Part shown: one piece after another, positions 47,254 to 52,127 of the stretch
Layout of the letters: the number at the start of each line of letters is the position of its first letter
How positions within the stretch are numbered: the first letter of the stretch is position 1
From: Chthonomonas sp.
GTDB taxonomy: Bacteria; Armatimonadota; Fimbriimonadia; Fimbriimonadales; Fimbriimonadaceae
Assembly (NCBI GenBank): GCA_016788115.1
Contig: JAEURR010000005.1
Coordinates: 310,001 to 374,000 of the forward strand
Reading direction: 5' to 3'
Length of the DNA: 64,000 nt
Translations under genes and position numbers: made by a program
Notes under the pieces: model-generated
What the model was told of the DNA's origin: nothing
The model's input: only the letters and a program-made list of their open reading frames with translations
The model's database searches: none

Positions 47254-47684
47254 ACGACGAAACGGTAACAGAGCTTGAAGAAACGCCAGAAACGGTGCAA
47301 ACCGATGAGTCTATTGATGCGCCCGTAATGGCCGCTACCGCGGCCGCCACGCTGACTTTGGTGCGCAACGGTGCACCGACTGACGAAATTTTCCCCATCG
47401 GCGCATCGGCGACGATTGGCCGCTTCGACCCCAGTCTTGGCCCCATCGACGTCGACCTGGCAACCATTCCCGAGGGGAGCTATGTGAGCCGCAAGCATGC
47501 CGTCATCACCTGTGAGGCAAGTGTTTGGAAGGTTGTCGATTTGGGATCGAGCAACGGCACGTTTGTTCGTCGCGCCGACTTTGAGAAGGTCGAGGCAGCT
47601 GAATTGACGGACGGCACTGAGATTGCATTTGGCAACGCACGGTTTGTCTTCAACGTCACCGAAGTCACGGCACCCGAAGATTGA
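47250..47684 (+). CDS. FHA-domain protein
   Basis: A 144-residue soluble protein. After an acidic, Glu/Thr-rich N-terminus of about 30 residues comes a forkhead-associated domain with its conserved residues: GRFDPSLGP, the Ser-His pair in YVSRKHAVI, and VVDLGSSNGTFVRR. FHA domains bind phosphothreonine peptides, so it may be read by a serine/threonine kinase; none is in the window. It overlaps the upstream symporter gene by four bases, and the Thr-rich N-terminus could itself be phosphorylated. Confidence 0.9.
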   Translation: MNDETVTELEETPETVQTDESIDAPVMAATAAATLTLVRNGAPTDEIFPIGASATIGRFDPSLGPIDVDLATIPEGSYVSRKHAVITCEASVWKVVDLGSSNGTFVRRADFEKVEAAELTDGTEIAFGNARFVFNVTEVTAPED

Positions 47685-47769
47685 GAATAACGGTAGAATA
47701 AGCAACTGGGCGACCAGTTTCGGGTGGAGCGATGGCCACCCCTCTCACTGTTTTCTGAAGGGTTATAGC

Positions 47770-48102
47770 ATGGTTTACCGGCCACTGCGATACGAGCAGA
47801 TGATGAAGGCGGCCGAGCATCTTGATGTTCGTGCGCGTCGAATGTTTAACGGTATGGGCATCTATACCGGTGAGAAAATGTTTGCGTTTTTGGCTGGTGA
47901 AGACATCGGTTTGAAGCTCTGCCCCGAGGACCTTGAAGAGGCGCTCCTACTTCCCGGAGCCGAGTTGCTGCGCACCGAAGGTAGTTCGGAACCCATGAAG
48001 GAGTACGTCCGCATGCCACGCAACGTACTCGACAACTACGACGCCTTCACGCACTGGGTCCAGAAGAGCGCAGAATACGCGCAACGGAAGCGCATGAACT
48101 GA
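47770..48102 (+). CDS. TfoX N-terminal-domain family protein
   Basis: The 110-residue product has the TfoX/Sxy N-terminal fold: RRMFNGMGIYTGEKMFAFLAGEDIGLKL, and EEALLLPGAELLRTEG. In Haemophilus TfoX controls competence, but stand-alone N-terminal domains like this occur widely with unknown function. It starts at ATG 47770 with GAAGGG eight bases before it. It has no link with competence genes other than a DprA-like protein 22 kb away. It lies between the FHA gene and pfkA and may be transcribed alone. Confidence 0.8.
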   Translation: MVYRPLRYEQMMKAAEHLDVRARRMFNGMGIYTGEKMFAFLAGEDIGLKLCPEDLEEALLLPGAELLRTEGSSEPMKEYVRMPRNVLDNYDAFTHWVQKSAEYAQRKRMN

Positions 48103-48159
48103 ACCCCGACTTTCGGGTAACAATGGGGTGGTACCGCTGATGATGCTGGAGGAGTCCCC

Positions 48160-49125
48160 ATTCTAAGCAAGATTGCAATTATTACCAGCGGTGGCGATGC
48201 CCCGGGCATGAACGCTGCGATTCGTGGCGCGGTGCGTGCGGGCCTTGGGCGCGGAGTCGAGGTCTGCGGGTTCGTTCACGGCTACCAAGGGATCATCGAA
48301 GACGAGTTCATGAACCTGGACTCGAAGTCCGTCGGTGGGATCATCGACCGTGGCGGCACCATCCTACGCACCGCCCGTAGCAAGGCGTTCATGACTCCCG
48401 ACGGGCGCAAGACCGCCTACAACAACCTTTTGAGCCACGACATCGAAGGGCTCGTTGTCATCGGGGGTGACGGTTCGCTCACGGGTGCTCGCACCCTCGC
48501 CGATGAGTTCAACTTCCCTGTGATGGGCGTCCCGGGTTCGATCGACAACGATATCGCGGGCACCGATTTCTCGATTGGTTTTGACACGGCCGTTAACACG
48601 GCCATGGAAGCGATTGACAAGGTTCGCGACACCGCGTACTCGCACGAGCGGGTCTTTGTCATCGAGGTTATGGGTCGGAGAAACGGCTTCATCGCCCTCG
48701 AAGTGGGGCTCGCGGCAGGTGCCGAAGCGGTCATCATCCCCGAGGTCCCCTACTCAATTCTGGACATTTGCGACTCACTGAAAGCCATGCATGATCGCGG
48801 AAAGCGGTCCAGCATCATCGTCGTCGCAGAAGGCGCGGCTCGGGCGAGCGACATCAAAGACTTCATCACCAAGAGCACAGGATTCGAGGCCCGCTACCTC
48901 GTGCTGGGGCACATGCAGCGAGGCGGGAGCCCCACTGGATTTGACCGCGTGCTTGGTCTGCGGTTGGGTGCGTTCGCCGCGAACCGCCTCATTAGCGGAT
49001 TCAAAGGCGAGATGGTGGGCGTGGACGGGAGCAAACTCGTCAGCCACCCGATCAGCTACGTACTCTCCAGCGAAAGGACGATTGAGGCCGAGAAACTCTT
49101 CCTCGTTGAGGTCATGGCACGGTGA
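48160..49125 (+). CDS. pfkA: ATP-dependent 6-phosphofructokinase with ATT start codon
   Basis: A 321-residue glycolytic enzyme. TSGGDAPGMNAAIRG and VIGGDGSLTGA (Gly after GGD indicates ATP rather than PPi use) are catalytic signatures, with GTDFSIGFDTAVNTAM and VEVMGRRNGF-like (IEVMGRRNG) regions after. The open frame has no ATG, GTG or TTG between an upstream stop (48118) and residue 17, but GGAGGAG at 48148-48154 is followed five bases later by ATT (48160). Starting there gives LSKIAIITSGGD, aligning exactly with other PfkA N-termini. The fit suggests initiation at ATT. It overlaps pfkB by four bases. Confidence 0.9.
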   Translation: MLSKIAIITSGGDAPGMNAAIRGAVRAGLGRGVEVCGFVHGYQGIIEDEFMNLDSKSVGGIIDRGGTILRTARSKAFMTPDGRKTAYNNLLSHDIEGLVVIGGDGSLTGARTLADEFNFPVMGVPGSIDNDIAGTDFSIGFDTAVNTAMEAIDKVRDTAYSHERVFVIEVMGRRNGFIALEVGLAAGAEAVIIPEVPYSILDICDSLKAMHDRGKRSSIIVVAEGAARASDIKDFITKSTGFEARYLVLGHMQRGGSPTGFDRVLGLRLGAFAANRLISGFKGEMVGVDGSKLVSHPISYVLSSERTIEAEKLFLVEVMAR

Positions 49126-50060
49126 TCCTCACGCTCACGCTCAACCCGAGCGTGGACAGAACGTTGTTCATCGACACGCTCAAACCAGGGGACACCAATC
49201 GGGTCCGCAAAGTGGAAACCGACGCAGGTGGCAAGGGGATCAACCTCTCTCGAGTGGCGACCGAAATGGGAGGGCGTACCACGGCGCTCGGCCTCGTCGG
49301 GGGCCCCCATGGAGCATGCATCCACCACGTCCTGCACGACGAGGGTGTCCCAAACGCTTTCACCCCCATTGCTTTCGACACCCGGATTAACATCAATATC
49401 GAGAGCGACTCGGGTGAGCCGCCGACCACGTTCAACGCCCCGGGACCGGAAGTCAGCCCTGACGAATGGGAGGCACTGCTCCTTGCCCTACGCGGCCATC
49501 TGGGAGGCGCAACCTGGGTGGCAATGGGCGGGTCGCTCCCCCCTGGGGTTCCCGTCGACGCATACCGAATCCTGGGTGAGATTGTGAGTAGCAGCGGCAA
49601 GCCGTGGCTCCTTGACGCCGACGGCGATCCAATGAAGCTCGGCATGGAGTCGGGTCCGACGATGGTGAAGCCAAACAGTCACGAGGCCGCCCGACTGTTG
49701 GGCCATCCTGTCGAATCTGACGCTGATGCGATCGGCGCTGCGCGCGAACTCCATCGCAGACTGGGTCCGGCAAGTGTGGCGATCATCAGTCGCGGCGCGA
49801 GAGGGGCCGTGCTCGCGTGCGTCGAAGGTACTTTCCTCGGGCGGTCGCCCCAAGTCGTTGCGCGTAGCACCGTTGGGAGCGGCGACTCTCTCCTCGCGGG
49901 CATCCTGACGAAACGGGATGCCGGTGCGCCGTGGGCGGACGCCCTGCAATGGGGTCTGGCCGCGGGGGCCGCGACCGCAACGACCGGAGGAGCAGAGATT
50001 GCCCGTATGAATGTCATCGAGCTTTTGTACGATGAGGCGAGCGTGGAGATCGTGCATTGA
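49122..50060 (+). CDS. PfkB-family sugar kinase (1-phosphofructokinase/LacC-like)
   Basis: The 312-residue product has the PfkB signatures of the FruK/LacC branch: ILTLTLNPSVDRTL at the N-terminus, DAGGKGINLSRVA, and the C-terminal catalytic motif VGSGDSLLAGIL (Asp). Members phosphorylate fructose-1-phosphate or tagatose-6-phosphate. Following pfkA suggests use of fructose-1-phosphate or a second route to fructose-1,6-bisphosphate. The start is GTG overlapping the pfkA stop (GTGA). The next gene overlaps its own stop in the same way. Confidence 0.88.
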   Translation: MILTLTLNPSVDRTLFIDTLKPGDTNRVRKVETDAGGKGINLSRVATEMGGRTTALGLVGGPHGACIHHVLHDEGVPNAFTPIAFDTRININIESDSGEPPTTFNAPGPEVSPDEWEALLLALRGHLGGATWVAMGGSLPPGVPVDAYRILGEIVSSSGKPWLLDADGDPMKLGMESGPTMVKPNSHEAARLLGHPVESDADAIGAARELHRRLGPASVAIISRGARGAVLACVEGTFLGRSPQVVARSTVGSGDSLLAGILTKRDAGAPWADALQWGLAAGAATATTGGAEIARMNVIELLYDEASVEIVH

Positions 50061-51185: not shown

Positions 51186-52127
51186 ATGCGAGATGCTTTT
51201 ATTGATAGTTTGTCGCGACTTGCGGAGCAGGATGATCGAATCTTACTCATCACAGGAGACCTCGGCTTTGGTGTCCTGAACGATTTTGCCGCTCGATTTC
51301 CGAAGCAATTCCTGAACGCAGGGGTCGCCGAACAGAATATGACCTTGATGGCCAGCGGCATGGGCATGGACGGGCGAACCGTCTTTACTTACTCCATCGG
51401 TAACTTCCCGACCCTGCGCGCCCTGGAGATGATCCGCAACGACGCGTGCTACCACAACGCGAACGTCAAGGTGGTTTGCATCGGCGGCGGATTCAGTTAC
51501 GGCCAACTCGGAATCTCGCACCACGCGACCGAGGACTTGGCCATTCTGCGCGCGCTGCCGAACATCACCGTCGTCGCCCCCGGCGATGACTACGAAACGG
51601 TCGAGGCGACCAAAGCGATCACTGCGCTCCCGGGCACTTGCTACTTGCGACTTGATCGGGCATCGATGACGGTGGAATCCACCACGGGCGAACCGTTCGT
51701 CCTCGGACGCGCGCGGACGGTGCGACGCGGCGACGACGTGACTCTCATGTCCACGGGCGGCATGCTCGGCGAAGCGATGAAGGCTGCGGAACTGCTGGCG
51801 AAGCAGGGCATCGAGTGCTCGGTCGTGAGCATGCACACGCTTAAGCCGCTGGATACCGACGCCATCCGCGACGCGGTGGAGAACACCCCCTTGCTGGTAA
51901 CGCTGGAAGAGCACGTTGTGGAAGGTGGGCTTGCGGGTGCGGTCTCGGAGACCTGCCTGGAGAACGGCTGGATCCCGCGCGGATTCGTCCGGATCGGATT
52001 GCAGAGCAAATTCAGCAGCATCGTCGGTGACCAAGACTATCTGCGCGCGCAATACGGCCTCGATGCATTGGCAGTCTCGAAGAGGGTGCTGGAGAAGATG
52101 GAAAGCATGGTGACAGCAAGCCGATGA
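51186..52127 (+). CDS. Transketolase C-terminal-type subunit (TPP-dependent, pyrimidine/C domains)
   Basis: The 313-residue product matches the C-terminal half of split transketolases: RILLITGDLGFGVL, FPKQFLNAGVAEQNMTLMASGM (TPP pyrimidine-binding Glu in GVAEQN), and the Rossmann-type C-domain ALP..VSMHTLKPLDTDAI. The matching N-terminal half, with the GDG...N TPP-pyrophosphate motif, is not in the window. Split subunits of this kind occur in sugar biosynthesis loci. It overlaps the methyltransferase gene by four bases and lies upstream of a WbpM-type gene. A promoter lies about 20 bases upstream. Confidence 0.85.
   Translation: MRDAFIDSLSRLAEQDDRILLITGDLGFGVLNDFAARFPKQFLNAGVAEQNMTLMASGMGMDGRTVFTYSIGNFPTLRALEMIRNDACYHNANVKVVCIGGGFSYGQLGISHHATEDLAILRALPNITVVAPGDDYETVEATKAITALPGTCYLRLDRASMTVESTTGEPFVLGRARTVRRGDDVTLMSTGGMLGEAMKAAELLAKQGIECSVVSMHTLKPLDTDAIRDAVENTPLLVTLEEHVVEGGLAGAVSETCLENGWIPRGFVRIGLQSKFSSIVGDQDYLRAQYGLDALAVSKRVLEKMESMVTASR

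Follow-up and report, generated by a model that had tools for sequence, protein, structure and literature searches.

The 6-phosphofructokinase gene pfkA of this Chthonomonas species is probably translated from a near-cognate AUU codon at position 48160 of the window (the whole 64,000-nucleotide stretch of DNA that was analysed). The original prediction had placed the start at this ATT; no other reading suits the sequence as well, and the placement holds against a survey of 388 genes of the genome as well as a comparison with 79 orthologues. Reading of the frame from ATT (48160..48162, + strand), together with a profile match, gives a gene at 48160..49125 on the + strand. Its product is an ATP-dependent PfkA, matching the TIGR02482 profile over its full length (390.6 bits; curated cut-off 371.35), and the gene is present as a single copy in the genome (2.4 Mb, 9 contigs, 97% complete). 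After an in-frame TAA stop upstream (48118..48120, + strand) the frame runs CAA TGG GGT GGT ACC GCT GAT GAT GCT GGA GGA GTC CCC ATT CTA AGC AAG ATT, and continues with GCA ATT ATT ACC AGC GGT GGC GAT GCC CCG GGC ATG. The last of these codons is Met17 (48208..48210, + strand), the first canonical in-frame start, which lies within SGGDAPGMN; as had been claimed, ATG, GTG and TTG are absent from the frame between the stop at 48118-48120 and Met17 at 48208. The Shine-Dalgarno (SD) sequence GGAGGAG (48148..48154, + strand) was also found as described, with the ATT following it at a spacing of 5 nt, or 7 nt from the GGAGG core. The gene thus combines the two features by which we tested for a near-cognate ATN start: a canonical start is missing at or near the conserved N-terminus, and an SD sequence lies at working distance. 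The remainder of pfkA is intact.

Structural comparison of the N-terminus is consistent with this placement. Residue 2 of the predicted protein aligns with residue 2 of E. coli PfkA (1pfk), the Met1 of E. coli PfkA corresponds to the ATT column, and the length read from ATT equals that of the E. coli enzyme. Alignment to bacterial PFK structures covers the first strand and the GGD loop, beginning at residue 2 of those structures, and the orthologues have both elements, in agreement with the earlier argument that the first strand is needed. Because Met17 sits inside SGGDAPGMN, initiation there would lose the first strand and the loop. The N-terminus had also been described as aligning exactly with other PfkA enzymes, and this stood for E. 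coli PfkA and for one relative in the same genus (G001), but the alignment is one codon off most of the family. The family's usual start column is one codon downstream, at CTA (48163..48165, + strand, placed by orthologue alignment), so the ATT product would be one residue longer than most members. The GTG at the ATT column in G001 and the length match to E. coli PfkA make the earlier placement at ATT a reasonable one.

The comparison with relatives covered 80 distinct pfkA sequences, including that of the window, from the family, from other families of the order, and from one Bacteroidota record. The usual start column of the family, seven codons ahead of the S of SGG, reads ATG, GTG or TTG in 70 of the 80 sequences, and a further nine have a canonical start 1–6 codons upstream of it. 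The window's pfkA is alone among the 80 in having no canonical start at the expected place. Comparison of this codon among related genomes, which had been proposed as a check, showed a canonical start in the homologous column or 1–6 codons upstream of it in 79 of the 80 sequences, and an ATT that is not conserved even in close relatives. Within the same genus, G001 (L004) reads GTT GTG TTC AAA CGG, with its GTG in the ATT column, and G002 (L003) has a TTG start in the CTA column, one codon after the ATT column, so that the ATT is known from one genome of one species. Use of a near-cognate codon does not need conservation, whereas a regulatory role would lead us to expect it. Weak starts are frequent in this gene: GTG or TTG starts were found in 36 of 69 family pfkA sequences (L003-L077, leaving out that of the window) compared with 83 of the 388 genes called in this genome, counts that ignore kinship and depend on a gene caller that prefers ATG. 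From these comparisons, the ATT is more likely the outcome of drift than a conserved switch, the pfkA start having weakened in a family that already tolerates weak starts in this gene.

The same alignment raises the question of initiation at CTA 48163, since this is the column in which 70 of the 80 orthologues start, and its distance of 8 nt from GGAGGAG is acceptable. However, the initiator anticodon would mispair with CTA at the first and third positions, but with ATT at the third alone, and the same-genus G001 begins one codon earlier, in the ATT column. We know of no natural CTA start, and consider this site very improbable and less likely than ATT.

To place pfkA in the context of its own genome, a simple codon-usage gene caller was applied to 454 kb of the same contig (C5), yielding 388 genes at 90% coding density. 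About 5% of random positions show an SD match of at least 5 bases at suitable spacing. Such matches precede 88 of the 388 called genes, a figure inflated by the caller, which rewards SDs. Among the 388 genes, only for pfkA does the coding signal set in close to the preceding gene while a nearby canonical start is missing. It is also the one gene whose first canonical start is preceded, at a distance of more than six codons, by an ATN codon with an SD in front. No further frameshift-like break was flagged among these 388 genes. Since the defect is confined to pfkA within this survey and the remaining genes show no sign of a frameshift, poor assembly is an unlikely explanation.

A local error in sequencing or assembly deserves more attention, either a true canonical start at 48160-48165 or a CCCC run recorded one base short, which would bring the ATGATG at 48140 into frame. 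An indel of the latter kind is unlikely because such errors are rare here, with no other frameshift-like break in the 454 kb; moreover, an in-frame ATGATG would make the N-terminus 7-8 residues longer than that of most relatives, and would place a strong SD within the coding sequence. A substitution artefact is the main rival to the ATT start: a single change, for example one wrong base at 48162, would be enough, the remaining 79 orthologues all have a canonical start, and intact reading frames bound substitution errors only weakly. An independent copy of the sequence was not found: a search of genome contigs for a second strain brought up L032, a family relative with ATG, and L033, a Bacteroidota record, and an exact pattern searched in viral contigs gave no match. 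Taken over both forms, we regard error as improbable, though not negligibly so, and as less likely than initiation at ATT.

The ATGATG also opens an out-of-frame mini-ORF (ATGATG...TAA, 48140..48166, + strand; ATGs at 48140 and 48143), encoding MMLEESPF and overlapping the start region of pfkA. Ribosomes could conceivably enter at 48140 and either slip by -1 at TCC CCA (CCA to CCC), or stop at the TAA at 48164 and reinitiate at the overlapping ATT or CTA. The presence of the mini-ORF, the overlap of its stop with the pfkA start region, and the possibility of CCC/CCA re-pairing are compatible with such coupling. However, only a weak SD (GGTG) precedes the mini-ORF, which is missing in G001 and G002, and plain initiation behind GGAGGAG requires no second event. 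The internal SD is also too near for the usual -1 stimulators, judged by dnaX-type sites. We therefore hold entry through the mini-ORF to be highly doubtful, and less likely than direct initiation at ATT. The start region further contains a perfect 7 bp inverted repeat, with its 5' arm AATGGGG at 48122..48128 and its 3' arm CCCCATT, which covers the ATT, at 48156..48162 (both + strand). A regulated hairpin over the ATT was considered and rejected, since the stretches folded showed no stability beyond that of shuffled sequences (z -0.78 to 0.45).

With ATT as the start, we propose that GGAGGAG would position the 30S subunit at the pfkA start, where the initiator tRNA would pair imperfectly with AUU 48160, giving a protein that begins Met-Leu-Ser-Lys-Ile-Ala and matches E. 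coli PfkA in length. Initiation would be expected to be weak, partly compensated by the SD, and may be weaker still when IF3 is abundant. The anti-SD for the class Fimbriimonadia is given as UCACCUCCU in a survey (PMC10783764). The whole assembly yielded no 16S rRNA gene, and probably represents a metagenome-assembled genome from which the rRNA operon was lost.

Evidence from infC indicates that near-cognate starts are the rule for this gene in the Fimbriimonadaceae. In the genome of the window, infC has an ATA start (L108 1228-1230; G000:C9, about position 51374) behind GAGGTG, and no canonical codon was found at its conserved N-terminus. Across 21 family genomes (infC loci L091-L116) the N-terminus fits ATA in nearly all, the exceptions being ATC in L109, ATC or ATA in L100, and ATT in L112; in L109, L110, L112 and L115 the assignment is somewhat less certain, as there is an ATG a few codons downstream. 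In several order-level relatives, infC fits ATT or ATA. Because near-cognate infC starts appear general in the family, translation in this lineage evidently begins at codons of this kind, and IF3 is probably autoregulated.

IF3 represses noncanonical starts, as with infC and Streptomyces sigR (PMC5472188). The idea that pfkA responds to IF3 gains plausibility from the ATA, ATC and ATT starts of infC in this genome and family, and a dependence of PfkA levels on IF3 is possible and mechanistically plausible by analogy. A conserved circuit between IF3 and glycolysis is unsupported, because the pfkA ATT varies even within the genus. Coupling of pfkA and infC through their near-cognate starts, such that both rise when IF3 is scarce relative to ribosomes, is in our estimation a speculative proposal with little chance of being correct; if true, it would link the condition of the translation machinery to glycolysis at its committed step.

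Outside infC, natural AUU starts have been described for just a few genes, and the papers searched contained no report of one for pfkA. Like pfkA here, infC combines a near-cognate ATN start (AUU, AUA or AUC, with autoregulation by IF3) with a good SD; however, the near-cognate start of infC is kept across the family, whereas that of pfkA occurs in one species and its control by IF3 is putative. In Staphylococcus aureus, near-cognate starts of cvfC1 (AUU), ccpN (AUA) and infC (AUA) are paired with strong SDs, and in poor medium near-cognate reporters reached about 10% of the activity obtained with AUG (PMC13009471). The parallel to pfkA lies in the strong or extended SD before the near-cognate start of cvfC1 and ccpN, and ccpN, like pfkA, concerns carbon metabolism (PMC13009471). 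In contrast to the predicted pfkA start, those of cvfC1 and ccpN are conserved in relatives and backed by ribosome profiling and reporters (PMC13009471). E. coli pcnB offers another case outside infC of limitation by an AUU start (Binns and Masters 2002, cited in PMC13009471); it is a different gene in a different phylum, and its start was established experimentally where that of pfkA is predicted. Streptomyces sigR resembles pfkA in having a noncanonical start outside the translation machinery and a link to IF3, but its codon is GTC, it encodes a sigma factor, and the effect of IF3 was shown experimentally (PMC5472188). If confirmed, the pfkA start would demonstrate that, given a strong SD, a near-cognate start is tolerable even for a core enzyme encoded by a single gene copy. 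It is also a place where gene finders limited to ATG, GTG and TTG would cut off an essential N-terminus.

Upstream sequences of the pfkA orthologues revealed a second pattern. In 24 of the 80 orthologues, the pfkA start follows at 4-16 nt the end of a TATAAT-like box (CATAAT in most cases), compared with a mean of 2.7 in shuffled sequences. Such -10-like boxes occur in L005, L008, L009, L013, L017, L023, L038, L040, L042-L045, L050, L053, L054, L056, L057, L067 and others. Their position just before the start leads us to predict that some members of the family make pfkA mRNAs without a leader, and suggests that about 30% of the orthologues are of this kind. The window's pfkA has its SD in place of a near-start TATAAT-like box, and no sigma-70-type promoter was found in 47600-48400. 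Leaderless initiation is also regarded as sensitive to IF3; with about 30% of the orthologues appearing leaderless, on the speculative coupling view above IF3 sensitivity of pfkA might arise by more than one route in the family.

Examination of the gene neighborhood placed pfkA between two genes on the same strand. The upstream gene (47770..48102, + strand), which we take to be TfoX-like by our own naming, has no NCBIfam match, and adjoins pfkA in many relatives too. Downstream, profile search and neighborhood comparison identified a pfkB-family hexose kinase (49122..50060, + strand), whose GTG start overlaps the pfkA stop. The order TfoX-like gene, pfkA and pfkB-family kinase is common to many relatives.
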